Source of the DNA: Chloroflexota bacterium | GTDB lineage: Bacteria; Chloroflexota; Dehalococcoidia; Bin125 | Assembly (NCBI GenBank): GCA_028874365.1 | Contig: JAPPJZ010000044.1 | Location: 124,850 to 166,824 of the forward strand | Reading direction: 5' to 3' | DNA length: 41,975 nt | Shown: piece after piece, positions 24,301 through 41,812 of the stretch | Layout: every line of letters begins with the position of its first letter | Position numbering within the stretch: the stretch's first letter is position 1 | Made by a program: the position numbers and the translations under genes | The notes under the pieces: model-generated | Databases searched by the model: none | Seen by the model: the letters and a program-made list of their open reading frames with translations, nothing else | Told to the model about the DNA's origin: nothing

Positions 24301-24907
24301 CCTGGAGCAGGAGGCGGCGGGTAAGCCCAACGCGCGGCTCAACGCGCAAGAAGCGCGGCGTCGTGCCGATGACCTGCAGGGTCGGCTGCGCAAGCGGCTG
24401 GACGAACTGGAGCGCGAGTCCGCGATCAGCGCGTCGCCGCCGGTCGTGATTGGCGGACTGATGGTTGTCCCGGCAGGACTGATCGCTGAGATGACCGGCT
24501 CACCGGCACAGGCGCCGACCGCCGACACGCAAGCAGTGGCCGCCGAGGCGCGCAAGATCGTGATGGAAGTGGAACGCGGACTCGGATTCGAGCCGGAGGA
24601 CCGGGAGTTCGAGCACCTCGGCTACGACATCGAGAGCCGCGACCCCTCTGGCGGACAGGGATTGCGCTTCATCGAGGTCAAGGGACGCCGCGCCGACGCC
24701 GACACCGTGACTGTGACGAAGAACGAGGTCCTCTACTCGCTCAACCAGCCTGACAACTTCATCCTCGCACTGGTCGCGTTCGATGGGGACGGCAGCCACG
24801 AGGTTCGCTACCTGCGCCAGCCATTCCAGCGCAAGCCCGATTTCGGCGTTACAAGCGTCAACTATGACCTCGGTGAACTCCTGGATAGAGCGGAGGCCCC
24901 ATCATGA
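21332..24907 (+). CDS. SNF2-type helicase with C-terminal DUF3883
   Basis: This superfamily 2 ATPase/translocase has 1191 residues and is the first gene of the defence operon. A short N-terminal module (1-100) precedes Walker A DDPGAGKT (129-136) and the DEAH box D232-EAH. A long charged insertion follows (about 370-530). The second helicase domain has ATDAASEGINLQ and NPNRIEQRFGRIHRIKQT (about 589-630). A helical arm spans about 640-1060. At the end, from about 1075, GYDIESRDPSGG and FIEVKGRRAD mark a DUF3883 domain with a restriction-endonuclease-like core. The GTG start has AAGGGAG about eight bases upstream. It resembles the helicases of Hma and class 1 DISARM (DrmD). Its stop overlaps the protease start by four bases. 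Confidence 0.9.
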   Translation: MAKLEDLKQSASVRGVVPDGLATVVNVQWFGSDAIELTFKDASGRPDSVLLYRDDEERLEVVEEGRPWSFDGDGSLFRLVSEAQRIRLAHLFDPLLAVHTSDIDPLPHQITAVYEAMLPRQPLRFLLADDPGAGKTIMSGLLIKELIARGDLKRCLIVCPGSLVEQWQDELSRKFQLPFEIATNDKLEAARTGNWLAETDLAIARLDKLARDEDVQAKLQAPDCRWDLVVCDEAHKMSASFFGGEVKYTKRYQLGQLLSQLTRHFLLMTATPHNGKETDFQLFLALLDGDRFEGRFRDGVHRVEVDDLMRRMVKEKLLKFDGRPLFPERIAYTLPFELTPPEARLYTEVTDYVREEFNRAEKLNNDKRAGTIGFALTVLQRRLASSPEAILQSLRRRRERLESRQREVEVMKRGAETLDRAMPLLDDDDLDDLDQLDEAPEDEIEELGRTILDQATASRTIAELKAEISTLRRLERLASEVKRTGDTKWKELASTLSYLLDLSSGRSVAEDSRPYGSGPIPPPKPSRNQKIVIFTEHRDTLSYLYDNIANRLLGRSEAVAVIHGGLGREDRQKAQERFLHDTDVQVLLATDAASEGINLQRAHLMVNYDLPWNPNRIEQRFGRIHRIKQTEICYLFNLVANETREGDVYRTLLEKIEQARTALGGQVFDVLGKLDFEGRPLRDLLIEAIRHGEQPEVRARLNTVIENAIDRPQLEQLMEDKALAPEIMDAGRVASVREDMERAEARRLQPHYIEEFFREAFRRLGGKMSERESRRYQITNVPAPIRDRDRIIGLGEPVLRRYERVVFEKELISPQGKPLAAFICPGHPLLDATLDLTLERHRDLLRRGAILVDDRDPGTEPRMLFYAEHAIQDSSVLASGERRTISKRMLYVELDAEGNARHINYAPYLDLRPLREDEPDVEAFLAREECDWITRELEQRAMQHLISEVAPEHLAEVRGRRVRWIDKTRDAVKDRLVKEISYWDYRAGQLLEQEAAGKPNARLNAQEARRRADDLQGRLRKRLDELERESAISASPPVVIGGLMVVPAGLIAEMTGSPAQAPTADTQAVAAEARKIVMEVERGLGFEPEDREFEHLGYDIESRDPSGGQGLRFIEVKGRRADADTVTVTKNEVLYSLNQPDNFILALVAFDGDGSHEVRYLRQPFQRKPDFGVTSVNYDLGELLDRAEAPS

Positions 24908-25623
24908 TCACGACCAACGTGGTTCAGCGGACGCTTCACATCCGTTTTGGGAACAAGACCGGGACTGCGTTTGCGATAGACAGGGAAGACAGGCAGTATC
25001 TGGTGACCGCAAGGCATCTACTTGAGGATGCCGGACAGAATGACGGCACATACATCTACAAAGACAAGAAGTGGGTCAACTTCCAGTTCCAGGCGGCGGG
25101 GATAGGAGAAGGCGAAACGGACGTCGCCGTCATGGCCCTTCCTTTTCGGATCGCTCCGCGCTATCCATTGGAACCCTCCTCTGGAGGGATGCTCCACGGA
25201 CAGCAAGTGTTCTTCCTAGGGTTTCCCTTCGGTTGGGACGGCAGAGGGGAGAACATCAACCATGGATATCCGGTTCCATTCGTGAAGGCAGGTGTCATGA
25301 GCGCTGTGCACTTCGGTGAACCCTCTCTGATCTACATAGATGCTCATGGCAACAAGGGATTCAGTGGTGGGCCGGTTGTGTACAGGGATCCGAGTAAGCC
25401 CAACTCCGACTTGAAGGTGGCGGGCGTCGTTGCACACGGTCCCACACCGATTAGGAAGCCGATCGTCGATGAGCGTGGGCTGCCACTGGTTGAAGAAGAC
25501 GGCAAAGGGGCGTACTTCGCTGAAAATCAAGGATTCGTCGTTGCCATAGGAATCCGACACGTGGTCGACCTGATCGACTCGAACCCCATCGGCTTTAGCC
25601 TTCCTGCCGAGGAGGCGGAATGA
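24904..25623 (+). CDS. Trypsin-like serine protease within defence operon
   Basis: This 239-residue protein has a trypsin/HtrA-type peptidase fold with a full catalytic triad: H38 in LVTARHLLED, D73 in ETDVAVMALP, and S154 in NKGFSGGPVV. It has no signal peptide or membrane segment, so it should act in the cytoplasm, and no PDZ domain. The ATG overlaps the helicase stop (ATGA) and its own stop overlaps the methylase start, so it is translated as part of the operon rather than being a chance neighbour. By eye its DNA is less GC-rich than the helicase gene, which hints at later acquisition. Possible roles are cleaving a partner protein after phage sensing or processing an operon product; these are guesses. 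Confidence 0.85.
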   Translation: MITTNVVQRTLHIRFGNKTGTAFAIDREDRQYLVTARHLLEDAGQNDGTYIYKDKKWVNFQFQAAGIGEGETDVAVMALPFRIAPRYPLEPSSGGMLHGQQVFFLGFPFGWDGRGENINHGYPVPFVKAGVMSAVHFGEPSLIYIDAHGNKGFSGGPVVYRDPSKPNSDLKVAGVVAHGPTPIRKPIVDERGLPLVEEDGKGAYFAENQGFVVAIGIRHVVDLIDSNPIGFSLPAEEAE

Positions 25624-28508
25624 TGTCAACAGACTCGCCCGTCGTGACCAAGCGCAAGCTGATTGAGGTGGCGTTGCCCCTCGACGCCATCAACAAGGCG
25701 TCGGCGCGGGAGAAGTCGATTCGGCATGGGCATCCTTCGACTCTTCACCTGTGGTGGGCTCGGCGACCTCTGGCGGCGGCTCGGGCGGTGATCTTTGCCC
25801 AGATGGTGGACGATCCCTCGGCCAATCCTGACCTCTTCCCGACCGAGGCAGCGCAGGAGAGAGAGCGGCAGCGGCTGTTCAAGATCATCGAGGACCTCGT
25901 TCAGTGGGAGAACACGACCAACGAAACGGTGTTGGAGCAGGCGCGCGAGGAGATCTGGCAGTCGTGGCGGCGGATCTGCGCCGAGAACGCCGACCATCCA
26001 CGCGCCGACAAGCTGTTCAACCGCGACAAGCTGCCCGCGTTCCATGACCCCTTCGCCGGTGGAGGCTCGCTGCCCCTTGAGGCGCAGCGGTTGGGGCTGG
26101 AAGCGCACGCCTCCGACCTCAACCCGGTGGCGGTGCTGATCAACAAGGCGATGATCGAAATCCCGCCCAGGTTCCCGGGCCAGCCGCCGGTTAACCCCGA
26201 GACGCGCGGCGAAGCGCGGCTGACCGACAAGACCTGGCGCGGCGCTGAAGGGCTGGCCGAGGATGTGCGCTACTACGGACAGTGGATGCGCGACGAGGCC
26301 GAGCGGCGCATCGGCCACCTCTACCCCAAGGTGCTGGTGACCAAGGCGATGGCCGCCGACCGGTCCGACCTCGAGCCGTATGTCGGTCGCGAGTTGACGG
26401 TCATCGCCTGGCTCTGGGCGCGGACGGTGAAGAGCCCAAACCCAGCGTTCGCCGATGTCGACGTTCCGCTCGTCTCGACCTTCATCCTCTCCAAGAAGAA
26501 GGGCAAAGAAGCGTGGGTCGAGCCGATGATCGAGGAGTCCGGCTATCGGTTTGAGGTGCGCTCAGGCAGGCCTCCTGAGGCGGCCGCTTCTGGAACCTCA
26601 GCCGGCAAACGCAGGGCATTCCGATGCCTCATGTCCGACACAGCTCTTCCCTACGAGTACTTGAGAACAGAGGGCAAAGCAGGTCGCATGGGCGAGCGTT
26701 TGATGGCAATCGTCGCCGAAGGTGATAGAGGACGTGTCTACCTTGCACCAACGCGGGTTCACGAAGAAACCGCAAGGTCAGCTCAACCCACGTGGAGACC
26801 GACTACCGAGATGCCGAAGAAGCATCGGAACTTCCAGGGACCTGTCTATGGTCTGGACACCTTAGGCGACGTTTTCACCGACCGACAGCTGGTGGCGCTG
26901 ACAACCTTCTCCGACCTCGTATCGGAGGCCAGAGAACTGGTCCACCGGGACGCTGTTACTGCTGGTCTCTCGGATGAGGAGGCAAATGAGTATGCGATTT
27001 TAACGAAATTTTTTTTCGCAATGTGCGTTAGCAAGTCGTCTGACAGCAGTTGTACAATCTCCCGTTGGCAAAGCGCCGGCGACTTTGTCGCCGGCGCTTT
27101 CTCACGTCAAGCCCTGCCGATGCTCTGGGACTATGCAGAGGCCAACCTCTTCTCTAGTTCAACACAAAACTGGATGGGTCAAGTGAACTGGGTCGCCAAG
27201 GCGGTCCGGTTCCTGCCTTCCGATCCGATTCCGGGCAGAGCCATTCAGGCTGATGCGGCAGATCCATCAGACCAGAGCGGCCAATACCCGTTCCCGCCGG
27301 CGGTGGCATCCACGGACCCTCCTTACTACGACAATGTGGGGTACGCCGATCTGTCGGACTTCTTCTACGCGTGGTTACGGAACATCCTTCGCGATGACCT
27401 CCCGGAACTGTTTGCCACATTGGCGGTTCCGAAGGAGCAAGAACTGATCGCCGCTGCGTACCGCCACTCGAGCAAGCAGGCTGCTGAGGACTTTTTCCTG
27501 GACGGCATCTCCGACGCCCTTTCCCACCTTGCGAACAACCAACTCGATCCTTTTCCGCTCACCATCTATTACGCCTTCAAGCAGTCCGAGGCAACGGAAG
27601 AGGGGCTGACGAGCACCGGTTGGGAGACATTCCTTGACGCGGCGATCCGATCCGGCTTGGCGATCACTGGCACTTGGCCTGTGCGAACTGAGCGCGGAGC
27701 CCGGGCATTGGCGATTGGCGTCAACGCCCTAGCTACAAGCATTGTCCTCGCGTGCCGCTCCCGGACATCTAGTGCGCCAACTGCCACGCGGCGAGAGTTC
27801 CAAGACCGTCTGCGCGCCGAGTTCCCTGACGACCTCATTCACCTCCAACGCTCTAACATCGCCCCAGTCGACCTCGCCCAGGCCTCGATTGGGCCCGGAA
27901 TGCGTATCTTCACCGAGTACCGCGAGGTGCTGAACGCCGATGGTTCGCCGATGACCGTGCGCGAGGCGCTGGCCATGATCAACGCCACCCTCGACGAGGT
28001 GCTGGCCGAGCAGGAAGGCGACTTCGACGCCGACTCGCGCTGGGCTCTGACCTGGTTCGAGCAGCACGGCTTCGAAGAGGGCGAGTTCGGCGACGCCGAG
28101 CAGCTCTCGAAGGCCAAGAACACCAGCCCCGACGGCCTCGTCCAGGCAGGCGTGATCGAGTCGCGTCGCGGCAAAGTCCGCCTTTATCGACCATCCGAAC
28201 TCGCCGAGGACTGGGACGCCGCCAGCGACTCGCGCCTGACGGTCTGGGAGATGACCCACCATCTGATCCGCCTGCTGGAATCGGAGGGCGAGCCTGCCGC
28301 CGCTGAACTCGCCGCCGCTCTCGGCGCACGAGCCGAGACCGCCCGTGACCTCGCCTACCGTCTCTACGTCGTCAGCGACCGCAAGAAGCGAGCCGAGGAC
28401 GCCCGCCAGTACAACGCTCTCGTCCAGTCGTGGTCGGAGATCATGCGCCTCGCCCAACTCCCCTCCACCACCTCCCGCCAGGCCGGCCTGGAGTTCGCTG
28501 AGGAGTAA
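25620..28508 (+). CDS. DUF1156 DNA adenine methylase
   Basis: This large DNA N6-adenine methyltransferase (962 residues) presumably marks host DNA for the helicase/ATPase system. The DUF1156 opening KLIEVALPLDAINKASAREKS, then LHLWWARRPLAAARA (about 42-56), is followed by the AdoMet motif DPFAGGGS (143-150) and ASDLNPVAVLINKA. The catalytic motif D566-P-P-Y is in STDPPYYDNVGYADLSDFFYAWLR. A tail beyond 750 is helical. The ATG at 25620 overlaps the protease stop; a second ATG at 25623 is possible. By eye the middle third (about 26.6-27.9 kb) is less GC-rich than both ends, and it contains a T8 run at 27009-27016 and a perfect hairpin at 27070-27100, yet stays in frame. The middle probably holds the target recognition region. 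Confidence 0.92.
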   Translation: MMSTDSPVVTKRKLIEVALPLDAINKASAREKSIRHGHPSTLHLWWARRPLAAARAVIFAQMVDDPSANPDLFPTEAAQERERQRLFKIIEDLVQWENTTNETVLEQAREEIWQSWRRICAENADHPRADKLFNRDKLPAFHDPFAGGGSLPLEAQRLGLEAHASDLNPVAVLINKAMIEIPPRFPGQPPVNPETRGEARLTDKTWRGAEGLAEDVRYYGQWMRDEAERRIGHLYPKVLVTKAMAADRSDLEPYVGRELTVIAWLWARTVKSPNPAFADVDVPLVSTFILSKKKGKEAWVEPMIEESGYRFEVRSGRPPEAAASGTSAGKRRAFRCLMSDTALPYEYLRTEGKAGRMGERLMAIVAEGDRGRVYLAPTRVHEETARSAQPTWRPTTEMPKKHRNFQGPVYGLDTLGDVFTDRQLVALTTFSDLVSEARELVHRDAVTAGLSDEEANEYAILTKFFFAMCVSKSSDSSCTISRWQSAGDFVAGAFSRQALPMLWDYAEANLFSSSTQNWMGQVNWVAKAVRFLPSDPIPGRAIQADAADPSDQSGQYPFPPAVASTDPPYYDNVGYADLSDFFYAWLRNILRDDLPELFATLAVPKEQELIAAAYRHSSKQAAEDFFLDGISDALSHLANNQLDPFPLTIYYAFKQSEATEEGLTSTGWETFLDAAIRSGLAITGTWPVRTERGARALAIGVNALATSIVLACRSRTSSAPTATRREFQDRLRAEFPDDLIHLQRSNIAPVDLAQASIGPGMRIFTEYREVLNADGSPMTVREALAMINATLDEVLAEQEGDFDADSRWALTWFEQHGFEEGEFGDAEQLSKAKNTSPDGLVQAGVIESRRGKVRLYRPSELAEDWDAASDSRLTVWEMTHHLIRLLESEGEPAAAELAAALGARAETARDLAYRLYVVSDRKKRAEDARQYNALVQSWSEIMRLAQLPSTTSRQAGLEFAEE
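27070..27100. repeat. Perfect 14-bp inverted repeat inside methylase gene
   Basis: AAAGCGCCGGCGAC at 27070-27083 and its exact complement GTCGCCGGCGCTTT at 27087-27100 are separated by TTT. It looks like a bidirectional terminator stem, but it lies within the coding frame and no T-run follows. The encoded residues (around AGDFVAGAFSRQ) sit where the family normally has a W-x(n)-F-x-RQA stretch, so the protein is not lengthened. Confidence 0.8.
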
Positions 28509-28520
28509 GATTGGTCCAGT

Positions 28521-28554
28521 CCCCTCTCCCTCTGGGAGAGGGTTAGGGTGAGGG
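28521..28554. repeat. REP-like palindromic element
   Basis: CCCTCTCCC (28522-28530) and GGGAGAGGG (28534-28542) form a 9-bp stem with loop TCT, followed by TTAGGGTGAGGG. This motif is a common dispersed intergenic palindrome in many GC-rich genomes, as I recall. It lies in the 70-bp gap between the methylase and the small nucleotidyltransferase-like gene, the largest gap inside the operon. Confidence 0.65.
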
Positions 28555-28578
28555 CCCATCGAGACAGGGAGCCGAGCC

Positions 28579-28908
28579 ATGGTCACCACGTCATCACCCG
28601 AAGTCGCCATGCAGCACATGGTTGAAGAGCTCGTTGAGCAGTTCGACCCCGAGAAGGTCTACCTGCTTGATGTCCTGATGTCGGGCGACCAGCGGGTCTG
28701 GCACGAGGCCAACTTCCTCGTCGTGCTGGACGGCGAGTGGGAGTACCGGGAGAAGGTCACCGAAATCATGGGCGCGCACTCCAAGACCGGCTTCGGCGCG
28801 TTGTTCCGTGTTGTCACGCCAGAGCAGTTTGAGCGGTATCGGGGGCACGGCTACATTCCGCCGCACTTCAATCTCAACGAATCACGCATGCTCTATGAAC
28901 GGAAGTGA
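28579..28908 (+). CDS. Degenerate minimal nucleotidyltransferase (MNT-like)
   Basis: This 109-residue protein aligns by eye with minimal nucleotidyltransferases that pair with HEPN proteins. LVVLDGE follows the second motif, and RVVTPEQFERYR with a final MLYER matches the usual end. The catalytic parts are changed. The G-S of the first motif reads D31-V32 (in LLDVLMSGD), and the D-x-D metal site reads E43-A-N45. It is therefore probably inactive as a nucleotidyltransferase and may only bind its HEPN partner. A GGGAG box supports the ATG at 28579. The HEPN gene overlaps its 3' end by 14 bp. Confidence 0.65.
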   Translation: MVTTSSPEVAMQHMVEELVEQFDPEKVYLLDVLMSGDQRVWHEANFLVVLDGEWEYREKVTEIMGAHSKTGFGALFRVVTPEQFERYRGHGYIPPHFNLNESRMLYERK

Positions 28909-29299
28909 ACGCGACCCTCTGGACCCGCCGCTCTGGCTGGACGACGCGGAGGAGGACCTGCGCGCCGCGCTGTTGTTTCAAGAGCGGGGGGATTTCGCCC
29001 CTCGACATGCCTGTTGGTACGCCTTACAGTCGGCGGAAAAGTCGCTCAAGGGCCTAACCGTTCTGGATCAGAGAACTCATCAGAGGACTCACAACCTGAG
29101 GGATCTGTTGCCAGAGTCTGCCGAGCTGTCAGTCTCAGGAGCCGATCTGGATCACCTCACGGCCGTTGGAGTCGCCGGGCGATATCCCGATGCCGGTTAC
29201 CCACCCACGGCGGAAGACGCCCGCCGAGCGGTCGGACTGGCTGGGACCATCTACGATCTCGTCGCCGCAGAGTTTGAGCGTCGCGGCGCAATCAACTAG
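28895..29299 (+). CDS. HEPN-domain protein
   Basis: This 134-residue helical protein has the MNT-associated HEPN pattern: WLDDAEEDLRAALLFQERGDF, then HACWYALQSAEKSLKG, then THNLRDLL. A possible R-x5-H RNase motif is R60 to H66. In MNT-HEPN pairs the HEPN partner is often an RNase toxin held in check by the MNT protein. Here the MNT partner lacks its catalytic residues, so control would have to be by binding. The start at 28895 overlaps the upstream gene by 14 bases, and the DUF499 ATPase gene begins nine bases after the stop, so it belongs to the operon. Confidence 0.75.
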   Translation: MNGSERDPLDPPLWLDDAEEDLRAALLFQERGDFAPRHACWYALQSAEKSLKGLTVLDQRTHQRTHNLRDLLPESAELSVSGADLDHLTAVGVAGRYPDAGYPPTAEDARRAVGLAGTIYDLVAAEFERRGAIN

Positions 29300-29308
29300 A
29301 GAAGCAAC

Positions 29309-32300
29309 ATGGCCATCACAAATCGAGACCGTGTCGGTAAGGCACTTGACTTGCTCAAGGAAGGCCTCGGGCCATTCGTCGAGCGGGAGTTTGTCCGCGT
29401 ACACCGCAAGCGCGCCGACGAACAGGCGCGTCTCTACTTCAACGACCGGCAACTGAGCACGGATCGGCCGATTCGCGAGTGGGATGCCGCCGCGCTGCTC
29501 GGTCTGATGTCGACCCGAGCCTGGGGTGATGTGTTCGCACAGGTGTTGGGCCACGTCGAGCGGTCGCATGTTAGCGAGCTACGCGACGCCAGGAACAAGT
29601 GGGCGCACCAAGAGCAGTTCACGGGCGACGATACAGAACGGGCGCTCGATACCGCTGCTCGCCTGTTGACCGCCATTTCAGCCGAGCAGGCCGCAGAGGT
29701 CGCGAAGATGCGGCAGGAACTCCGCCTACTGGTGATCGACGAGCAAACGCGCAGCGCCACACGCCGCGCCGGAGGCTCATTGATCGAACCTGCAGCCGCC
29801 GAGTCGCTCAAGCCCTGGCGTGAGGTTGTCACTCCGCACGTGGACGTGGCTAGCGGAGGCTTCCAGCAGGCAGAGTTCGCAGCCGACCTGTGGCAGGTTC
29901 ATCTCAACGAAGGCAGCGACGAGTACCGCGATCCGGTCGAGTTCTTTCGCCGCACATATCCGACCGAGAGTCTGCAGAAGCTCTTGGTCGGCGGCATCGA
30001 GCGTCTGACGCAGGGCAACGGCGATCCGGTGGTGCAACTGCAGACCAACTTCGGCGGGGGCAAGACGCACTCGATGCTGGCCCTCTATCACCTGTTCTCC
30101 GGAGTCGCGCCATCGTCGCTGCCAGGCATTGAATCGCTCCTCTCGGAGGCCGGTGTCACCGAGTTGCCGAGGGTACGTCGCGCGGTGCTGGTCGGAAACA
30201 AGATCTCGCCGGGCAATCCGGTGACGAAGTCGGATGGCACAGTCGTGCGCACGCTGTGGGGCGAGATCGCATGGCAGCTCGGTGGGGCAGAGGCCTTCGC
30301 ACGCATCGCAGCCGACGATGAACGAGCCTCAAACCCGGGTGACCGCCTGCGCGAGCTGTTCAACGAGTACGGTCCATGCCTCATCCTGGTCGACGAATGG
30401 GTGGCCTACGCGCGACAGTTGCACGACGAGGCCGATCTGCCAGGCGGCGACTTCGAAACTCACTTCACCTTTGCCCAGGCGCTCACTGAAGCCGCCAGAT
30501 CGGCAGACAAGTGCCTGCTGCTGATTTCGCTTCCGGCCTCAGATGGTCCCGGCTCTTCGCACTCTCAGTCGGAAGACATCGAGGTCGGAGGCATTCGCGG
30601 TCGGGAGGCGCTGCAGCGTCTGCGCAACGTGATCGGACGGATCGAATCGGCCTGGCGTCCAGCTACCGCTGAGGAGAGCTTTGAGATCGTTCGTCGTCGC
30701 CTGTTCGACGAACTCAGCGGAGACGAACAGCATCGAACTCGCAATCTCACGGCCCGCGCGTTCTCGGAGCTTTACAACAAGGAACGAGACGAGTTTCCTC
30801 TCGAATGCCGTGCGGCCGATTACGAACGTCGAATCCAGAGCGCCTACCCGATACATCCGGAGATTTTCGATCGGCTCTACTCGGACTGGTCCACGCTGGC
30901 CAACTTCCAGCGCACCCGAGGGGTCCTGCGCCTGATGGCGACCGTCATCCACAGTCTCTGGGAGAAGGGCGACCGAAATCCACTGATCCTCCCTTCAACA
31001 ATCCCGATGGATGACGCTCGAGTGCAATCGGAGCTGACCAGGTACCTCTCCGACAACTGGACTCCAATCATTGCGGCCGACATCGATGGTCCAAACTCGC
31101 TGCCTCTGAAGATCGACAACGAAGTATCGAATCTGGGCAAGCTCAGTGCGACTCGCCGCGCTGCGCGCACGATCTACCTCGGTTCGGCCCCGTCCTCTGA
31201 TACGAGCCAGCGGGGGATTGAAGATCGGCGCGTCAAGCTCGGCTGCGTGATGCCAGGCGAGTCACCACAGGTCTTTGGTGACGCGGTACGTCGTCTCGCG
31301 GCCGGAGCCACATACCTCTATCAGGACGGTCCGCGCTACTGGTACGCCACGCAGCAAACCGTCACCAAGCTGGCCGACGATCGTGCCCAGCAGCTCGAAC
31401 GTGACCCGGATGCCGTTCACGCCGAGCTGGAGCGGCGGCTGCAGAGCGACCTTGGCCTGAAGCCACGCGACGAACGCCGACGCGGAGACTTCTACGCGGT
31501 TCATCTGATGCCTCAGAGCGGCGGCGACGTGCCTGATCAACTGGAAACGCGTCTCGTCGTGCTCGACCCGGAACATGCTTATGCCCGCGGCGACGGGAAC
31601 CAGGCAGAAGCCGCTGCCCAGACGATCCTGCAATCACGCGGGTCCGGGCCGCGTCTCTACCGCAACACGCTCGCCTTCCTCGCCGCCGACAAGGTCCGTC
31701 TGCAGGACCTGCACGATGCGATCCGTCGCTTCCTGGCATGGGAGTCGATTCTCAGCGAGCGAGTGGAGTTGAATCTCGACCCGCACCAGGTACGCCAAGC
31801 GGAGAATCAACGAGAAGCCGCGAACGGCGCCGTCGAGGCGCGCCTCCCGGAGACCTATTGCTGGGTCATCGTCCCGACTCAAGCGAATCCCAGCGCCGAC
31901 GTGTCCTGGCAAGCTTCCCGTCTCAGTGGAAGCGACTATCTCGCTGTCCGCGCCAGCCGAAAGCTCAGCCGCGATGAGCAACTAGTCGGCAAGCTGGGCG
32001 CGACCATTGTGCGCAAGGCACTCGACGACATTCCGCTGTGGCGCGGGAATCACCACGTTCCCGTCAGGACTCTCGTCGACGATTACGCGCAGCAGCTCTA
32101 TCTGCCGCGCCTAGCCGGTCCCGGCGTCCTGATCGAGGCGCTGCGCTCCGGCGTGGCGACGCTTACCTGGGAGCTCGACACATTCGCGTATGCCGAATCG
32201 TTTGATGAGCAGAAGGGACGGTATCCGGGCTTGTTGGCCGGGGTGCAGATACCCTTGTCGGCTGACGATTCAGGAGTCATTGTCAAACCCACTGCTGCAC

Positions 32301-32641
32301 AGAGTCAGCTGAAGCAGGAGGTCGAAGACGACGAATCGCCTGCGGCTGAGGAAGATCCTGAGCAGCCAAGCGCCGAATCGACCGAGGAGCCGACCCCGCA
32401 GCTCCATCGTCGGTACCACGGCACTGTTCGCCTCGATCCGACTAGGGTCGGCCGCGATGCGGGTCAGATCGCGCAGGAGATCATCGCGCACTTGGTCGGC
32501 TTGTCAGGGGCTGAAGTGACGGTGACGATTGACATTGACGCGACTCTGCCCGAGGGCGCGTCGGATCACGTGGTGCGGACTGTCACTGAGAACGGCCGGA
32601 CGCTGAAGTTCGAGCCAGGTTCGGGGTTCGAACGTGACTAA
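29309..32641 (+). CDS. DUF499 ATPase with N-terminal HEPN-like domain
   Basis: This large P-loop ATPase (1110 residues) is the third core component beside the helicase and DUF1156 methylase. Residues 1-135 look like a Swt1-type HEPN domain: [34 protein letters not shown], and the R-x4-H motif R95-NKWA-H100. The DUF499 part has Walker A NFGGGKT (247-253) and Walker B CLILVDEW (about residues 357-364), followed by a long C-terminal region. An acidic P/E-rich linker lies near 1010-1035. A closing domain contains [14 protein letters not shown] and ends [15 protein letters not shown]499 proteins are almost always encoded beside DUF1156 methylases. It is the last gene of the operon; a minus-strand gene ends 66 bp further on. 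Confidence 0.9.
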
Positions 32642-32707: not shown

Positions 32708-33859
32708 TCACTCGTCCTCTCCGGCATCCGGAAAAGGGTCTTCATGTGGAACGTCATCGTTCCAATATCCATACCGATCCGTGAGGAGGTGCTCGATGGC
32801 TGGGATGTCCGGCGTCATCTGATGACATTCCAGCCCCCAGTGGTTCAAGAGGGCCAGCATGGCTAACTGCCGCCGTTGGTCGAGCTCTTGAAGCGCGAAG
32901 CGAGCAACGGGTACCGGATCGGAACTGGCGCTCTCTAACCCGAATGCCATGTTCTTCATTTCCTTGTGTGTTTCTTCTGACAGTCTGTCGAACTGAGCTT
33001 CCGGAAATCGGTGGTCCATCACGATGTTGTGTACGGCCGTCAGAAGATGCCAATCGAGCCAGCCCCTTTGGCGAAGGTCCCTAACGATAGGCTGAAACTG
33101 GGGCGAGTACCTAAGCATCACGGAGGTAATCCGAAGGCTCTTGGCGAGATTGTCGTATCGAGCCTGAAGAAGCTCGTCCGCTCTTCCCTGCGAGTACGTG
33201 GGCCCCGGCCCTCTCTGCCACTCGAGTTCCTCGTGAACACCGAAGCTTCCGTCGTCGCTCTTCCAAGTTGTCTCGGCAGTTCGGTCGAGTTGGTCGTCTT
33301 GGTCGGTTGCGAAGGCCGCTGAAAGCTCGTCAAAGGGACGCCCTACAAACAACTTGTGTCCTATCCCTTTCTCGTGGGCTCGCCTCATGGCCGCTGAGAA
33401 GTCGTCATCCGGGAGAAGCGACGCCTCTCTGAGAATCATGGTCAACGTTGTCACGAGTTCGAGTTCCAACTCCTCCACATCTGAGTCGCCTGGAACGCCG
33501 GCAGGCTTTAGGCGCACAACCCATTTTCGTCCGTCATTGCTCGGGAGCGCCTCTAGTGACTCTGACAGGCCGCTAGTCGATTGCCTATTCAGTTCGACCG
33601 TCACCGCGATCTTCACCGGGACGAGGCAAAGGTCCTCACGGGCCAATGCCGCAAGCATGACCTGAGCCCCGGCCGCGAACCGCTCGGCTGCCCAGACCGA
33701 ATCGCGATCATTGGCGCATCGGACGCTCCAGTCCGTGCCGAGGGCACGGAACCGAATGCAGTGAGACCCTCCCAAATCGGAGAATGGTGGCCCCGTCAAC
33801 TGTTCGCGCCCGAAAGAAGCCCATGAGTTGTCGAAGGGTTTCTCAGCGTCCTCAAGCAC
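32708..33859 (-). CDS. Uncharacterised protein, partner of upstream nuclease
   Basis: I do not recognise this 383-residue protein. It has no signal peptide or membrane segment. The first half is mixed alpha/beta with an acidic stretch (GDSDVEELELELVT); the second half is helical (LLQARYDNLAKSLRITSVMLRY, RQRGWLDWHLLTAVHNIVMDHR) and ends in a very acidic tail. The likely start is a GTG at 33859 without a visible ribosome binding site (an ATT at 33862 is the other choice). It lies in the same frame as the upstream 633-residue gene, only four codons after that gene's TAA. It is therefore either translated by re-initiation or once formed one long protein with it. Confidence 0.6.
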   Translation of the reverse strand: MLEDAEKPFDNSWASFGREQLTGPPFSDLGGSHCIRFRALGTDWSVRCANDRDSVWAAERFAAGAQVMLAALAREDLCLVPVKIAVTVELNRQSTSGLSESLEALPSNDGRKWVVRLKPAGVPGDSDVEELELELVTTLTMILREASLLPDDDFSAAMRRAHEKGIGHKLFVGRPFDELSAAFATDQDDQLDRTAETTWKSDDGSFGVHEELEWQRGPGPTYSQGRADELLQARYDNLAKSLRITSVMLRYSPQFQPIVRDLRQRGWLDWHLLTAVHNIVMDHRFPEAQFDRLSEETHKEMKNMAFGLESASSDPVPVARFALQELDQRRQLAMLALLNHWGLECHQMTPDIPAIEHLLTDRYGYWNDDVPHEDPFPDAGEDE

Positions 33860-33871
33860 AATGTCGATGAC

Positions 33872-35773
33872 TTAGTGAAGGTCGAATCGAGCGGTTACCG
33901 ATCGCACAGCATCTGCGAGCGAGGCATCCACATCGCGGGCGCATGCCGTGATGTAGGAGAACTTCAGGAGAGCGTCTTGGACTTCGCTACGTTCGTCGAA
34001 GTTGGCATCGTCCTCTGCGAACATGCGCAGGCTTTGCAATCCAAGGTCGAACATCTCTACTGCGCTGCACCATGCACCGGCTATGAAGTCGCAGTTCGCC
34101 GCAGTGAGGAGCCCGTGCGGAATGAGATCTGCGAGATCCTCATCGCCGCGTGACCAAGCAACATACGCCGCCGCTAATGCGTGAGCTTTCGCGGCGAGGG
34201 GTAGGCGCAAGTCCAGATAGGTGCGAGAGATCATGAGCATTGCCAGGAGTGAACCACGGACAGTCTCTCCCGCCCACCAATCCACCTTGGCTTGATGGAA
34301 CTCCTCCAAGGCGTCGATGCGGCGCCCGGCCTTTAGGAGCTTCATGGCCCTATCTCGCGCTCGAGCTGCAACGGCTCTCTTCCCCGAACGGACTTCAACC
34401 GCTTGATCCACGAGATCCAGCAGCCTTCGCCATTCGGCTACTTTGCTCCAGAGTGGTACCAGCAGCTGCAGCAGGTCCGCCACGCGTTGAATCGGGAAGA
34501 GTGGAGTGGCGTCCAGGTTCTCAACGAGCTCAGTCCAAGAGGAGAGCGTACGCTCATCGTCGACGAGGACAAGATCTTCAGGCAAGGCGACATCGACTAC
34601 GGCAACGCTCTCGTCACTCTGAATCCGACGCGCCTTCGCACGTGATTCCTCCGACGGTTCTTCAATGTCGCCATCCTTCAGCGCCGGATGAAGGCCTAGG
34701 TGGCCGAGCGCGAAGAGCAAACTTGCTCTGCGGTGCGGCGTCTCGGCGGCAAGGAGTTCTTGTGCCCTCGATGCGAGGCGGTCGTTCCAGTCGGCAAGTT
34801 CAGCAGGCGTGATCGATGTGAGTCCAGCTCTCACGGCAGTGTTGGTGTACATGAGCAGGGCGCTAGCGTCCTCTATGCGAGCCGGCTCCGTCTCTATCAA
34901 CGCTTCTTCGAAATATGCCCGAGCGACTTCCTCGACCGCTTCGAGTTCTCCAGTACCGCGGAAAGTTGCCACCACGAGTTCATAGCGCGCTCGTTGCTGG
35001 ATGTGCGGGGAAAGCTCAGGAATCGATAGAAGGGTTCGGATCAGGTCCAGCCAGAACGGAAGATCGATTCGGGCCTCAGCACGAAACGTAGCGAGACGAA
35101 GGCCACTCTTTAGGTCCACGAAGTCACCAATGGTGGGGATTGGGACCCTCTTCTCTCGCCAGCGGCGCCTGCGCTCCAAGTACTCTTCGGGCAGGTCTTG
35201 ATCGTCGGGCGGTGGGTCAGGTCGAATCTCAGCGGGCAAAGTGAGAAACTGGTCGGCAATCCAGAAGCCTTCTGGTTCTGCCAGGAGATCGGCGATGGAC
35301 TTTGCGTCATGGAATTGAAGGTCCACGTTGTAGGCGTCACGGCACTCGGTCTCAAGCGCGTGCCGAGCAGCGACCGGTACCGACGCTAGAGTGAAGGCGC
35401 GAATCTCGTGAACTGGGTGTCCAGAGCCGCAGACCTTGGCGATGTCTCGGCTCAGTTTCGATTGCAAATCATCGGCCTGGATGGTGCAGACGAATGCGAC
35501 GGTGCCTTGGCTGACGCGACCCAGAAACCAACCGTGGGGACCGAGTTCCTCGAGTAGGTAGGTATGAAAAGTCTCGAAGTCACGTCCTTGGTCGCCGCCT
35601 TTCGACACCGGTCCAGTTGCAGGGAGGAGGTTCGAGCAAATGAACTGCTTCGCGAGGTGGTAGCAGACCTCTTCAAATGTGTGATGCCCATTGCGACCAG
35701 ACAGTTGGCACAGCGCAAAGTGAACCAGAGTCGCAACTTCAGCTGGATTCGCCACGGACTCTCCACAATCCAT
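33872..35773 (-). CDS. Mrr-like nuclease fused to helical-repeat domain
   Basis: This 633-residue protein combines two parts. The N-terminus (about 10-165) reads like a restriction-endonuclease-fold domain: TFEEVCYHLAKQF (E34/E35), then KGGDQGRDFET with D65, then AFVCTIQ with Q99. The usual lysine after the Q-containing strand is not where expected (A100), so activity is uncertain. From about 240 to the end it is a long alpha-helical array (YELVVATFRGTGELEAVEEVARAYFEEAL, AKAHALAAAYVAW, and more) that looks like TPR/solenoid repeats and may sense a partner. It is encoded with the 383-residue protein downstream. A two-gene defence module is plausible from position between an Hma-like operon and McrBC, but this is inference. 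Confidence 0.6.
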   Translation of the reverse strand: MDCGESVANPAEVATLVHFALCQLSGRNGHHTFEEVCYHLAKQFICSNLLPATGPVSKGGDQGRDFETFHTYLLEELGPHGWFLGRVSQGTVAFVCTIQADDLQSKLSRDIAKVCGSGHPVHEIRAFTLASVPVAARHALETECRDAYNVDLQFHDAKSIADLLAEPEGFWIADQFLTLPAEIRPDPPPDDQDLPEEYLERRRRWREKRVPIPTIGDFVDLKSGLRLATFRAEARIDLPFWLDLIRTLLSIPELSPHIQQRARYELVVATFRGTGELEAVEEVARAYFEEALIETEPARIEDASALLMYTNTAVRAGLTSITPAELADWNDRLASRAQELLAAETPHRRASLLFALGHLGLHPALKDGDIEEPSEESRAKARRIQSDESVAVVDVALPEDLVLVDDERTLSSWTELVENLDATPLFPIQRVADLLQLLVPLWSKVAEWRRLLDLVDQAVEVRSGKRAVAARARDRAMKLLKAGRRIDALEEFHQAKVDWWAGETVRGSLLAMLMISRTYLDLRLPLAAKAHALAAAYVAWSRGDEDLADLIPHGLLTAANCDFIAGAWCSAVEMFDLGLQSLRMFAEDDANFDERSEVQDALLKFSYITACARDVDASLADAVRSVTARFDLH

Positions 35774-35996: not shown

Positions 35997-37217
35997 CTAC
36001 GCTGGATGTCGCCAGTGGTGAGCTGACTGGGAGCGAAGTTGACAGCAACGGCTTGCGAGTCGGGCGACTGAAGCCTCCATTGCCTCAATCGAGCCGTCCA
36101 GGTTGACTGTCTCGACCTCCAGCCGCTTGTCGGAGTGTGACAAATCGTAGGATGCTCCCCATCCCTCCGCATAAGCCAGAAGCGCCCCGGGCAGGTCGAG
36201 CGCAGAAGCGTACGCGAGCGCCTGGTAAAGGTCTGCGTTGGTGGCGCTGCCGTCTTCGATGATCTTGTACTTCGCGTCGCCTGCAAACACACACCTGCCA
36301 CCCTCCCACCAGGTGAAGTCCGGTCTGAGGGCGATCCGACGATCTTTGTCCAGGTACGCCGCAGCACATCCGGCATCAGAGCGGAAGTTGCGCTCGGACA
36401 GGTCCAGCTGCCGCCGAAGCGCATTGGTGACGAACTCCTGAAAGACGACGTTCATGTCCATCAGGAAGCCGGACGCGCGCACTTCGCCGCGCACCGCATC
36501 GAGCACTGTATGCCTCAGGATCAACCGCGACAGCTCGACCACTTCGCGGTAGTGGTCGTTGAGTCGGTCGAACTGGACAGATGGCACTTGGCGGCAGGGA
36601 ACGCGAATCAAGGTGACGTTCGCCAGGGTCGCGTCGATCAGCCGCAGACTCTGGTGCCAGCGGGGCGTCTGGAGGTTCATTCCGGCGAGCCGCCTGGCTG
36701 CGGCCCTGACCAGCCGGTTGGATAGCACATCTTCCGTGAAATCGTCGTACCGAACTTCGACCGGCAAGGGGAGGTCGTAGCGGCGGCGAAACTGTTCGGC
36801 GAAGTCGATGCGGCCTCGCACCGTCGTCAGCGAGTCTTGAACACTGCGGTACCCATGCAGCAATCCACCAGAGAACGCCCGCTGCGCCGCTGCGATGAAG
36901 GCGGGTACCAGGATGTGCTGCGGTGTGGCAGCTTCGTCGAATCCGAATGGCTCGTCGCGAAAGTCCACTCTGTTGATCGCCTGCGAGGCCAGGTACAGGA
37001 CCCTCTGGATCGGGAGCTTGGGCCGGATCCGGATCGAAAGCCCACCTAGTTCGAGCGCCCCAACAACGGAAGCCGGCGTCAAGACGTAGGCGTCTCGAGC
37101 GCCGGCGGCCGGCGTGATGCGGAGTGATGGGATCGCGGCGGCAAGGGCGTCTCGCTCGGCGACCGAGAGCGCAACCGCGTCCGACGGCTCGTACTCGCGC
37201 AGTTCAATCGTCCGCAT
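35997..37217 (-). CDS. mcrC: McrC-like restriction nuclease subunit
   Basis: This is the nuclease partner of McrB in a modification-dependent (McrBC-type) restriction system, 406 residues from the ATG at 37217. The N-terminal domain contains the McrC landmarks LGGLSIRIRPKL (about 58-69) and TTVRGRIDFAEQ (about 131-142). Then come DFTEDVLSNRLVRAA and FLMDMNVVFQEFV, followed by the restriction-endonuclease core P299-D300 ... D314-A-K316 in FAGDAKYK. The gene overlaps the end of mcrB by 14 bases. A GTG/ATG further upstream at 37232 is possible but not needed. In the family McrC cuts DNA when the McrB ring moves along it. Confidence 0.9.
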   Translation of the reverse strand: MRTIELREYEPSDAVALSVAERDALAAAIPSLRITPAAGARDAYVLTPASVVGALELGGLSIRIRPKLPIQRVLYLASQAINRVDFRDEPFGFDEAATPQHILVPAFIAAAQRAFSGGLLHGYRSVQDSLTTVRGRIDFAEQFRRRYDLPLPVEVRYDDFTEDVLSNRLVRAAARRLAGMNLQTPRWHQSLRLIDATLANVTLIRVPCRQVPSVQFDRLNDHYREVVELSRLILRHTVLDAVRGEVRASGFLMDMNVVFQEFVTNALRRQLDLSERNFRSDAGCAAAYLDKDRRIALRPDFTWWEGGRCVFAGDAKYKIIEDGSATNADLYQALAYASALDLPGALLAYAEGWGASYDLSHSDKRLEVETVNLDGSIEAMEASVARLASRCCQLRSQSAHHWRHPA

Positions 37218-39195
37218 CGTCCCCACCGGCACCGACCGGCGGATCGACAGCGTCGGCTCCCACCTTCAACTCAGCGCGCAGAACGTCCAGGCCGAACTCG
37301 CGGAGCCGGTCAGGCTCGCCGTACAGCTGTTCCTCGATGTACGGCAGGACGTTGTGGTTCCAGGTCAACTCGACCTGTTGCTCGGTGCGTCCGGCTTTCA
37401 TGAAGTAGCTGGGTCCGACCGCCGCCTCCCTCGCCTCCAACTTTTCGTTCGCAAGGTCGACGACTTCTGCTACCCACAGGAGCTCGGGCGCATGTGCGCT
37501 CAACCAACGATGGAGCAGACCCTTGATCGGCGCAGTATCAGGGTGAAACTCGACGAAGTGGAAGCGCCGGCGCAGAGCGAGGTCGACCAAGGCGATCGAG
37601 CGGTCGGCCGTGTTCATCGTCCCGATGATCCGCAGATTGCGCGGCAAGCGGAACAACGCATCGGAGTACTGCAACTGGATCGCTTCGTTCCGGTACTCCA
37701 GCAGGAAGTACAACTCGCCGAGGATCTTTGCGAGGTTGCCTCGATTGATCTCGTCGATGACGAGGAAGTGATCATGTTCGGGATCGTTCAGGGCGCGCGT
37801 CGCCAACTCGACGAGCGGTCCGTCGCGCAGCGTGAACGTGGCGCGGCCCTGGTCGTCGAGCGCCGGCCGGTAGCCCTGTACGAAGTCCTCGTAGGCGTAG
37901 GAGGGATGGAACTGCACGAGCCGTACGCGCTCGGCCGCGCCGGCCAGGTGCTCGACGAGTCGCTTGGCGACGAAGGTCTTGCCGGTACCTGGTGGTCCCT
38001 GGAAGATGACCTGCCGCTTGTCATCGAGCAGGCGTTGGACGGTCTCCAGAAATTCCAGAGGCAGCAGGAGTTCATCGGCCAAAGCTGCGAGGCTAGGCGG
38101 CTGATGCTCAAGTTGGTCTTCCTGTTCATCGGGCTGACCGGCTTGCGCCGAGTCCTGATACATGATCCAGATCAGCGACTGCGCTTCAAGCCGGTCTGCC
38201 GGCCGCTCCAAACTCAAGGCAGTGGCGCGGTCAATCAACCGATCCAGGAAGGCGAGCGCATGAGCGTACATCACGCCCGGGTCGGCGCCGCGCCGCGGGC
38301 GGGGACGGTGCGTTGCCTGGTATGCGAGTTCGTACGAGGTCTTGGTGAACGGCGGGTGGTCCGGACCGAGTGCCATCAGCAGGGCGGAGACGGTCCTCAG
38401 CGTCATGCCTATCTCGGACCGCCGGAAGCTGTTGCTCTCGGGAATGCGCTCGACCAGACGCCGGATGCGCTTGATGTCCCACTGATCATTGTCATCGTCC
38501 GACCAGAACGCGCGCATCGCGTCGCGCGCTTCGTCCGGCGCCGAGTCGAACCAGCTGTAGATCGCTGTGCCGCTTCTCCAGGTCATGGGGCTGCCCTGGA
38601 CCGAGAGCGCCTTGCGGACCAGCGCAGGCCATTGCGGGTCATCGGCAAACAGCGCAGACCGGGCCCGTCCGAGCCCTTCGATCATCTCGTGCTTGTAGTG
38701 CAGTTCCTGGCTGTCCAACTGGCCTGAATCGAAGTAGGTCTGCGCGCGCTTCAGGTATAGGTCGATCCACCTTGAGCTCAGCTCCATGACTCGCTCGCGC
38801 CCACCCTCCACGTTCACCCGATGAAAGGTCGAGGGACTGCGGATCGACTTGACCAGTTCTTCTCCGAACTCAGCGTCGGGTAAGTCGACGGCGTGCCAAT
38901 GGATGGCCCGGATATGATGCGGGTCTTCTTCTCGAAACACGTAATCGCCGGTGATTGACCCCACGTTGATGCGATGCTGCGAGAGCGGGACCGCGACCAG
39001 GTCACCCCGCTCCAGTTCGTGACAGAACCGCCAGAGCACGCCTGGTTGATTGTCGTGCTGTTGTTTGATGTCGTCCTCAGAGTCGAACTCCCGCAGATCG
39101 CGAGCGAAGCCGAAACTGATGCCGACGTGGGCGCGCTCAAGAAAGTCGACCTCATAGGCGAAATCTTCACCTGGGAAGACCTTCCAGAGCGTCAT
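37204..39195 (-). CDS. mcrB: McrB-like AAA+ GTPase with unusual N-terminal domain
   Basis: This is the motor subunit of an McrBC-type restriction system, 663 residues. The C-terminal AAA+ module has Walker A GPPGTGKT (400-407), Walker B VIDEINRGN (D481/E482), and the McrB GTP-specificity motif MNTADRS (527-533) followed by ALRRRFHF. Instead of the McrB DUF3578 DNA-binding domain, the N-terminus (about 1-105) holds a beta-rich unit (GDLVAVPLSQHRINVGSITGDYVF, then IRAIHW) of the kind seen at the front of some Mrr-like and McrB-like proteins. A helical section spans about 110-380. The N-terminal unit probably decides which modified DNA is recognised. mcrC follows with a 14-base overlap. Confidence 0.9.
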   Translation of the reverse strand: MTLWKVFPGEDFAYEVDFLERAHVGISFGFARDLREFDSEDDIKQQHDNQPGVLWRFCHELERGDLVAVPLSQHRINVGSITGDYVFREEDPHHIRAIHWHAVDLPDAEFGEELVKSIRSPSTFHRVNVEGGRERVMELSSRWIDLYLKRAQTYFDSGQLDSQELHYKHEMIEGLGRARSALFADDPQWPALVRKALSVQGSPMTWRSGTAIYSWFDSAPDEARDAMRAFWSDDDNDQWDIKRIRRLVERIPESNSFRRSEIGMTLRTVSALLMALGPDHPPFTKTSYELAYQATHRPRPRRGADPGVMYAHALAFLDRLIDRATALSLERPADRLEAQSLIWIMYQDSAQAGQPDEQEDQLEHQPPSLAALADELLLPLEFLETVQRLLDDKRQVIFQGPPGTGKTFVAKRLVEHLAGAAERVRLVQFHPSYAYEDFVQGYRPALDDQGRATFTLRDGPLVELATRALNDPEHDHFLVIDEINRGNLAKILGELYFLLEYRNEAIQLQYSDALFRLPRNLRIIGTMNTADRSIALVDLALRRRFHFVEFHPDTAPIKGLLHRWLSAHAPELLWVAEVVDLANEKLEAREAAVGPSYFMKAGRTEQQVELTWNHNVLPYIEEQLYGEPDRLREFGLDVLRAELKVGADAVDPPVGAGGDDADD

Positions 39196-39479: not shown

Positions 39480-39968
39480 CCCTGGGTTTGAGACCGAGAA
39501 CAAACGCACGTACGCGGACTAGGGCCGGGGAAACGCGTCGACCAACGACAGGGCAACGGATTCGCCAGACGACGTCTGGCGAATCTGTGACTCAGCCGAA
39601 CGAGCCGAAATGCCAGACCGCAGCTGGCCGATTCGACCAGGCGAGAAAACGAGGAAGAGCCGTCGCATGTACTGGAGGTTCTGACGCAAGAACCCCAGCC
39701 CGAACTGGGCCGTCAACTCGTCCGCCAACTTCGCGATCAGTTCCACCTCGTACTCGGCCCGTGCCCGATCGGATTGCCCGAACTCGACGATCCGCTGCCC
39801 GACCGGCCAGTATGCGGACGCCAGAACGGCATTGACGGTGCGGGCCGCCGAGACTCTCGCGGCGTTGACAATGGTGGCCACGTCACTGATCGCCGTTGCG
39901 AGCGCCGCTTCGCGTCCTTCGGAACCGGGCTGGTGTTCGGTCGTTCGCTCGACATTTCTGTTCGCCAT
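39480..39968 (-). pseudogene. DUF1016 (YhcG-like) nuclease remnant
   Basis: From ATG 39968 (GGAGA about eight bases upstream) the frame encodes the N-terminal DUF1016 domain: VNAVLASAYWPVGQRIVEFGQ, then LIAKLADELTAQFGLGF and LRQNLQYMRRLFLVF. The S/T/Q-rich linker typical of the family follows (IRQTSSGESVALSL). The frame stops at TAG (39519-39521) after DAFPRP. Beyond the stop, the same frame reads SAYVRLFSVSNP. Family members normally read DAFPLPWSAYVRLL-x-V here, so the TAG stands where Trp (TGG) is expected. After SNP the likeness ends and the C-terminal nuclease domain is missing. It is a decayed gene with both a nonsense change and a deletion. Confidence 0.75.
39559..39585. repeat. Perfect 13-bp inverted repeat in DUF1016 linker
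   Basis: GATTCGCCAGACG (39559-39571) and CGTCTGGCGAATC (39573-39585) flank a single A. It lies inside the sequence coding for the RQTSSGES linker of the DUF1016 remnant. DUF1016 linkers often repeat a QT-x-S-A-x-S unit, so the palindrome may simply reflect coding, but perfection over 13 bp is notable. Confidence 0.8.
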
Positions 39969-40105
39969 CGTTCCGGTTCTCCGATCAGTCGAGGACCTGG
40001 TCAACCGCAAGGATGCGAATGCTGCCTCCGCAATCGTCCCTCGACTCCGACCATGCCCCTGTCGTTTCGCCGGCGCTACGCCTGGAGTTGGCCGCGGCTC
40101 TCTCG

Positions 40106-41812
40106 TCATCGACGAAGAGCGAGTGGCGAAGCCCTTGCGGTCAAGCCCAGCAGATCGCTCTGCCCAGCTCTCTCATATGAGTTGGATCCTGAGTTGAGAG
40201 ACGGCGGCATCCCCCAGATCGGCTCCAGCGGGCCGCGGCTCGCCAACAGGTGCTGGGAAGTGACGAACAGCGGCAGTTCGATGGCGCTACGTGTCATCTG
40301 TTCACCTGCGATACGAACGAAGTGATCCTTCGCCAACCCATCATCGAACGCAACCAGAACAAGCGGCAAGACGCCGTGATCCTCAAGCGGCTGGCTGGTC
40401 GCGTAGTAGCGCAGGTATGGCGCGAGCCGCCGGGCCATGGTTGAGGGCCGGATCGCGCGTCGCTCCCATTCCAAGAAGAACGGGTAGTCGCGCCCGTCGC
40501 GACGGAGTACGCCGAAAGCATCGGGCTGGATCGAGCGCAGCTGGTCGTCGAAGCGGAAGTAGCGCGACGCACGCTGCGGCGGATCGATCTGCATCAGCTC
40601 CCAGCCGTCGGCGCGGGCATGTTCGGCCAGCATTGCCAGAAATCCGTGCGCGGCTTCGGTGTGGGCGAGGTTGCGCAGCAGCTGGCGGCTCCTGATTCCC
40701 TTGACGTTGCGCCAACTGATCACGGCGGCACGGTCAATCAGTTCTGGACTACAGCGCTTGCGCAGTTCGCCGACAGAGACGCGGTCGCGCCGAGCGAGAA
40801 GGGCCAGGCCGCGGTCGGATAGCGCGAGCCGGAACCGACCCACGACGTCGGCGCGGACGATCAGCCCCCAGTCGCCCGCGCGCCGGAAAAGCTGGCGTAG
40901 GCGGGCGCCGCTCACGCCGAGCAACGTGGCCAGGTGATCGAGCCGCAGCCAGGGCCAGTCGCCGATCAGGTCGAGACAGCGCTTCTCCGACGGTCCCAAC
41001 AGGGCGGACCACATCCAGTCAGCAGGCTTGCACGCAAGACCCTCATCTGCGGGCACTGAGACACGAACCAACGGACGCTCGGCCGGGTACGCCTTGTGAG
41101 GCCCGGCAAGGCCCAGCGCCTCACGCAGGCTGAGCGCGACTTCCGCCGAGGGCGCGCGCCAAGTGAGCGAATCCGGCCCCGCCTTCACTGCGTCCCGCTC
41201 GAGCGCGAGGAAGCAGGGTTGTGGGAAACTCCAAAGCCGCCTGGCCGTGTCGCGCAGCCGGGTCTCGTCCGGCGCGAGCAGCAGCACCGCGGCGAACGCC
41301 GGGCCGTCGCGCAGGCGGGTGAGCCGCCTGGCGAGGGACCGCCGTTCGTTGATCCGGCCCAGGCGCACGAGCGCAATCGTGCGACCGTCCGCCAGCCGCA
41401 GGCAGAGATCGACCGGCAGCGCTCGGTAGCAGCGGATCTGGATCGGAAAGGCGATATCGGCCACGGTGCAGCAGAGCCGGTAGAGCACAGCGAGGGCGTC
41501 GATCCGACCGAGGAACAGCCGCCGCACCTGCTCCGAAACAGGCCGCTCGTGCAGCAGACGCTCGGCGTTGATGCCTTCCGACTCGGCCAGACGGCGCAGC
41601 CCTGCGGCCGTGAGCGTGTAGCGGCGGGTCGGCGGGATCAGATCCGAGGCGTGCGCGACCGGCTGGACCAGGCGCTCGCCCTCCAGCGACTCGACCGCGC
41701 GGTAGACGGCGCTGCGCGACCAGCCCGAGAGCGCGGCCAGTTCGAGCCGGTCGAGCAGCGGTACCTGACTCAACCAGCTCAGAATGCTGACCGCCGGATC
41801 GCCCGTTCTCAT
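40106..41812 (-). CDS. Replication-relaxation family protein
   Basis: This 568-residue protein belongs to the replication-relaxation family found on integrative and conjugative elements and plasmids of Gram-positive and related bacteria. It has an N-terminal winged helix (ILSWLSQVPLLDRLELAALSGWSRSAVYRAVESL) and a second winged helix near 265-330 (CLDLIGDWPWLRLDHLATLLG). A C-terminal domain (about 430-480) contains QPDAFGVL and YPFFLEWERRAIRP, typical of the family and suggestive of a nuclease-like fold. Its ATG overlaps the stop of the upstream gene (ATGA), so the two are coupled. Its presence opposite a serine recombinase supports a mobile origin for the island. Confidence 0.75.
   Translation of the reverse strand: MRTGDPAVSILSWLSQVPLLDRLELAALSGWSRSAVYRAVESLEGERLVQPVAHASDLIPPTRRYTLTAAGLRRLAESEGINAERLLHERPVSEQVRRLFLGRIDALAVLYRLCCTVADIAFPIQIRCYRALPVDLCLRLADGRTIALVRLGRINERRSLARRLTRLRDGPAFAAVLLLAPDETRLRDTARRLWSFPQPCFLALERDAVKAGPDSLTWRAPSAEVALSLREALGLAGPHKAYPAERPLVRVSVPADEGLACKPADWMWSALLGPSEKRCLDLIGDWPWLRLDHLATLLGVSGARLRQLFRRAGDWGLIVRADVVGRFRLALSDRGLALLARRDRVSVGELRKRCSPELIDRAAVISWRNVKGIRSRQLLRNLAHTEAAHGFLAMLAEHARADGWELMQIDPPQRASRYFRFDDQLRSIQPDAFGVLRRDGRDYPFFLEWERRAIRPSTMARRLAPYLRYYATSQPLEDHGVLPLVLVAFDDGLAKDHFVRIAGEQMTRSAIELPLFVTSQHLLASRGPLEPIWGMPPSLNSGSNSYERAGQSDLLGLTARASPLALRR

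Follow-up and report, generated by a model that had tools for sequence, protein, structure and literature searches.

The stretch of DNA analysed here (the window, 41,975 nucleotides of a Chloroflexota contig) carries two adjacent open reading frames on the minus strand, ORF1 of 633 amino acids (33872-35773) and ORF2 of 383 amino acids (32708-33859). Both were found where an earlier note on this sequence had placed them, as were the GGDQGRD motif in the 633-residue frame and the systems that flank the pair on opposite sides, HmaABC and McrBC, which were assigned with PADLOC and Pfam. The note had read the two frames as a module of two separate genes. Translation of 32708-35773 on the minus strand gives 633 codons, a TAA and 387 more codons without a further stop; ORF1 and ORF2 thus belong to the same frame, with a single TAA at 33872-33874 between them (FDLH*VIDIVLEDAEK across the stop). 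The supposed two-gene module is one gene split by one in-frame stop in this genome. The gene, its parts and its neighbours are as follows.

35997 to 39195, minus strand: McrB and McrC (Pfam McrBC, 4.6e-48; AAA_5, 1.8e-21)
32708 to 35755, minus strand: the whole nuclease-solenoid gene, 1015 codons plus stop on read-through, interrupted at codon 628
35222 to 35755, minus strand: predicted PD-(D/E)XK (Mrr/MspJI-like) nuclease domain of about 178 residues (model of residues 1-180 of the relative L018)
35579 to 35599, minus strand: GGDQGRD motif of the nuclease core (from the sequence; near-invariant in alignment A7)
33875 to 35200, minus strand: the part of the TPR-like helical solenoid that precedes the stop (residues 189-646 of the L018 model, all helical)
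33872 to 33874, minus strand: interrupting in-frame TAA, absent at this position in intact relatives
32711 to 33793, minus strand: C-terminal alpha/beta-plus-helical domain of about 360 residues (predicted model)
21332 to 32641, plus strand: HmaABC operon into which protease and HEPN genes are inserted, a convergent neighbour (PADLOC HmaA, HmaB and HmaC, E 0)

One gene interrupted by a stop codon

The start of the whole gene is probably GTG 35755, since this codon has a good Shine-Dalgarno-like site (-6.4 kcal/mol) and the relatives begin with MANPxxV or MASPxxI at the equivalent of this position. At GTG 33859, the start of ORF2, the pairing amounts to -0.8 kcal/mol, compared with a mean of -3.2 for random 22-mers of the window, and this frame thus has no ribosome-binding site of its own.

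The relatives carry the gene in one piece. In G004 and G011, both from the window's genus, the frame is unbroken and encodes 1019-1021 amino acids, the identity between the G004 copy and the window being 46-57% depending on the region. When plasmids were searched with tblastn, both halves matched within the same records, where they belong to one annotated coding sequence of about 990-1250 amino acids in Streptomyces, Mycobacterium, Blastomonas, Agrobacterium, Hymenobacter and Fibrella. Scanning GTDB with each species represented by one genome gave 128 relatives, and at least 72 of the best 80 of these, archaea included, are intact single genes encoding about 970-1040 amino acids. Homologues of the two halves, whose failure to co-occur would have counted against the earlier note's proposal, do occur together, being one protein. 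Neither the description as two separate genes nor a two-gene pair as the ancestral state can be upheld, and we reject the latter.

Beyond the stop, the window copy is conserved to the same degree as intact genes. Its identity to outgroups in this part is 0.281, compared with 0.277-0.283 in three intact relatives, and it keeps 28 of the 32 conserved C-terminal positions; a conservation comparison gave no sign of relaxed selection after the stop. All catalytic residues are retained as well. Judged from this sequence conservation, the stop is therefore recent, an assembly error or tolerated. In this metagenome bin it could be an assembly error. The window protein has probably lost its C-terminal part and its activity, unless translation of that part continues.

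Other copies are damaged too. The Streptomyces cavernae copy has an in-frame TAG (L031, 9804-9806) about 29 codons before the position of the window's stop. In a contig of the window's genus (L017, 1-7053), an IS21-type element interrupts the gene near codon 606, and the C-terminal part lies on the opposite strand at the contig end. Frameshifts were seen in further damaged copies elsewhere. Clustering of the disruptions at the boundary between solenoid and C-terminal domain (window, S. cavernae and the IS21 element in G008) was not significant (p = 0.07, the positions of some sites having been judged by eye).

These data bear on a true fission of the gene, in which ORF1 and ORF2 would both be translated, the latter by termination-reinitiation, and would reassemble as a split protein. 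Some 25 codons lie between the stop and the C-terminal domain, which would allow both pieces to fold; the distance of 12 nucleotides between stop and start fits translational coupling; the half after the stop is normally conserved; and the upstream neighbour McrC likewise has no good Shine-Dalgarno site. However, such a site is also absent before GTG 33859, the split is conserved in no relative, the stop of S. cavernae being a different and earlier one, and the disruptions do not cluster significantly. We consider a fission improbable, and one interrupted gene is the reading followed below.

A predicted nuclease, a helical solenoid and a C-terminal domain

An AlphaFold2 model of L018, an intact relative from the same genus, was calculated with 69 sequences (mean pLDDT 86.9) and shows three regions. 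The first, for which the pLDDT is mostly 84-93 except at residues 41-80, superimposes with residues 2-172 on MspJI (4f0p_A; VIA Z 10.0, 3.9 A, 146 aligned residues). In L018 numbering, E27, D54, D58 and K99 are present in the window and in all 70 other aligned rows; position 92 is Q or E in 63 of the 70 rows, and the conservation of Q92 is thus incomplete. According to the model, the domain has the REase fold with the residues of a PD-(D/E)XK active site, a fold that does not by itself imply cleavage. The Mrr-like nuclease joined to a solenoid that had been proposed from the sequence is thereby borne out, as is the long helical array, which is seen in the same model.

The solenoid ends close to the stop, only a few of its residues lying beyond the TAA. 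Its best fold matches are the TPR proteins LGN, kinesin light chain and the Rap regulators (VIA Z 10-12), and structure matches in BFVD are to generic TPR-type repeats.

The 383-residue frame, which had been taken for the partner in a sensor/effector pair, encodes the nuclease protein's own C-terminal domain. Residues 655-1013 of L018, folded alone, gave a confident model (pLDDT 89.6, pTM 0.88) with an alpha/beta part followed by helices. The acidic tail singled out as a feature of this frame is merely a variable C-terminus without conservation. The best match of the alpha/beta part is to M1 aminopeptidases (VIA Z 8.1 over about 123 residues, 3.6 A), a value that is borderline by the tool's own yardstick. 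The HExxH zinc motif was found in none of 68 sequences; with the metal ligands absent and the zincin-like resemblance weak, the domain was assigned to no known fold. Likewise, the Walker A pattern occurs in none of 71 sequences, and the Pfam families AAA, NACHT and nSTAND gave no match at E <= 1 in the window proteins or the relatives. The alignment of all divergent C-terminal sequences (A1) is too diverse for pattern scans.

The fold of the C-terminal domain also raises the question of whether the family is a distant branch of Upx, a known single-gene defence system. Upx takes its name from the PD-(D/E)XK motif; a survey that Gao and colleagues published in 2020 reportedly introduced it as a (P)D-(D/E)XK defence gene that had not been characterised. 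Like the present family it is a long single chain (9wuf, 1212 amino acids), and it ranked third in a Foldseek search with the C-terminal domain alone (E 0.023; VIA Z 6.3 over 151 residues), a weak similarity in which only this domain was compared. A Z of 6.3 is, however, within the range scored by unrelated folds. Profile searches of PDB sequences did not return Upx, and PADLOC gave no match for the window or L018 (E <= 1), although its library may hold no Upx model; no sequence relationship was detected by these two means. We treat a distant kinship with Upx as a lead of low but real probability.

Relatives, exchanged nucleases and genomic setting

The family is rare, and its spread over bacteria and archaea is patchy. 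In the window's class, five of 393 sampled genomes gave a match, four of them in the window's genus, while samples of 395 Bacteroidota and 396 Actinomycetota genomes yielded the two seed genomes and one Bacteroidota genome only. No relatives were found in IMG/VR contigs by pattern search or in E. coli genomes by DNA search, and none of the C-terminal domain in phage records. Scans of the window proteins and the intact REase-type relatives with Pfam, PADLOC and NCBIfam assigned them to no credible family; with PADLOC, the REase-type proteins gave no match at E <= 1 except one weak hit to another candidate family. Searching PDB sequences with profiles or with individual relatives returned nothing of note, and none of the papers searched names an accession of the relatives. 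Judged by these scans, no model in the libraries searched covers the REase-type family.

The proteins of Hymenobacter and Fibrella have an N-terminus that differs from the REase type. The copy of Hymenobacter DG01 passes the Pfam cut-off for Cap4_nuclease (PF14130, 4.9e-8 in L005), and the Cap4-type proteins match LmuA models weakly (1.6e-7). When the REase-type family was aligned with three Cap4-type proteins, the solenoid and the C-terminal domain matched over 787 columns (hhalign 100%, E 9e-100), while the REase profile found no match in the N-terminus of the Cap4-type proteins. In Bacteroidota, a Cap4-type nuclease is thus joined to this solenoid and C-terminal domain, which suggests a defence protein made as one chain, in which the sensing core is conserved and the nuclease, of either REase or Cap4 type, can be exchanged. 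On two Hymenobacter plasmids, a gene of no known family encoding about 416 amino acids lies directly upstream of the Cap4-type version (L005, 6780-8030; L008, 6732-7982); the L005 protein has a weak PADLOC match to a type II REase (1.5e-5).

A sister family of about 1086 amino acids was found on plasmids of Cohnella, Nostoc, Cupriavidus and Agrobacterium. Homology (hhalign 100%, E 9e-40) covers the nuclease, the solenoid and the beginning of the C-terminal domain, which are common to both families, but the motif of the sister family is GGGDSKVD and the rest of its C-terminus is different. In an Acidobacteria MAG (L039, 7815-14437), a window-type gene is directly followed in tandem by a sister-family gene of the Cohnella type.

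The HmaABC operon beside the gene in the window is not part of it. This operon contains a trypsin-like protease gene (24904-25623; Pfam Trypsin_2, 1.6e-11), which shares four bases with the end of hmaA and another four with the start of hmaB. HmaC, preceded by an HEPN gene (PF05168, 2e-14) that has a small ORF upstream of it (28579-29299 and 29309-29680), itself has an extra N-terminal Swt1-like HEPN domain (PF18731, 3e-32); the Hma operon thus has added HEPN modules. On the other side, a short DUF1016_N gene (39519-40109), of which the C-terminal half is apparently missing, lies upstream of McrB (37204-39195). Residues 1-144 of this McrB match the PADLOC model PDC-S02 (1e-16), and the DUF1016_N gene matches the same model group.

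McrC is encoded 241 bp upstream of the nuclease-solenoid gene on the same strand, and no promoter or terminator match was found in between, as would be expected if the gene were an accessory part of the McrBC operon. Linkage to mcrB or mcrC does not recur in the flanks of 69 relatives, however, and same-strand neighbours are at chance level (39/69 and 36/69), so that this role is highly improbable. The same flanks contain no recurrent neighbour family beyond an actinobacterial gene (five loci) and relaxase-like proteins (four loci), and the conserved partner gene expected of a sensor/effector pair was thus not found. The actinobacterial gene, directly downstream in L047, L054, L055, L060 and L066, encodes a conserved protein of about 331 amino acids (no Pfam match in the one member scanned), which is a possible lineage-specific partner.

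Defence genes are common around the relatives. Strong PADLOC matches among 147 flanking proteins include DpdF, a CBASS SAVED effector and cyclase, PtuA, GajB, AbiEii, PsyrT, IetA, methyltransferases and others, and IetS, PDC-S28 and PDC-S06 adjoin three copies; among 97 control proteins, one Septu pair reached comparable strength. Because the control proteins come from one bacterial class and the flanking proteins from mixed taxa, and because families only were counted, this enrichment is approximate and taken as supportive only. With this restriction, the relatives recur among defence genes; their absence from defence islands would have counted against the earlier note's proposal. The idea of an unrecognised module holds in that the REase-type family is absent from the Pfam, PADLOC and NCBIfam catalogues; it fails in that the module does not consist of two genes.

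A putative single-chain defence protein

Several known systems share parts of this architecture. Avs/STAND proteins likewise combine an exchangeable N-terminal nuclease (Mrr or Cap4-type) with a long helical or TPR sensor in one chain, lie in defence islands and are patchily distributed, a likeness of architecture only and not of kinship. In contrast to the nuclease-solenoid family, they have a central NTPase with a Walker A motif, and to our knowledge they have no extra C-terminal alpha/beta domain. With Cap4 of CBASS and LmuA of Lamassu, the Bacteroidota branch shares the Cap4-type N-terminal nuclease, but neither a SAVED ligand domain nor an LmuB partner was detected at the loci of this branch, and the sensor core is the family's own.

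The likeness to MspJI and Mrr is confined to the fold of the nuclease domain; an MspJI-type DNA-reading domain was not detected, and a TPR solenoid and the C-terminal domain are present instead. A modification-dependent, type IV-like restriction system, in which the C-terminal domain would read modified phage DNA and the MspJI/Mrr-like domain would cut it without protein sensing or abortive infection, is nevertheless conceivable, as MspJI is itself a modification-dependent enzyme and McrBC, also of type IV, is encoded next door. However, no known modified-base reader domain was detected with Pfam, Cap4-type nucleases, too, are found joined to the solenoid and C-terminal domain, and TPR solenoids usually bind peptides or proteins. 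We give this mode of action a low but real probability.

Taken together, our results favour, with a probability of about 0.6, a single-chain protein of about 1015 residues that consists of a predicted nuclease, the TPR-like solenoid and the C-terminal domain, belongs to a family that no model in the libraries searched covers, is interrupted in the window by a stop where solenoid and C-terminal domain meet, and likely serves in anti-phage defence. The defence role is proposed by analogy. As in Avs-type proteins, the solenoid and the C-terminal domain may keep the nuclease inactive until they recognise a phage-derived molecule or a change induced by infection; the nuclease would then be released or oligomerised and cut DNA, and protection of the cell may follow. 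The sensing core would remain constant while the nuclease, of REase or Cap4 type, could be swapped. The parts and the logic of the family are of known kinds. A broader proposal, to which we give somewhat less than even odds, is that these proteins form a group of NTPase-free immune receptors of bacteria and archaea that has not been described before, in which a conserved TPR solenoid and a C-terminal pseudo-enzyme-like domain sense infection and control interchangeable nucleases in an Avs-like manner without ATP-driven assembly.

The locus illustrates how, in raw sequence, a lone stop codon may give one gene the look of a two-gene system. Intact relatives, if they protect their hosts against phages, would represent a widespread family that current defence catalogues have missed. 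Should the proposed mechanism be true, the family would provide another route by which the sensing of infection is coupled to the cutting of DNA, one that does without an NTPase.
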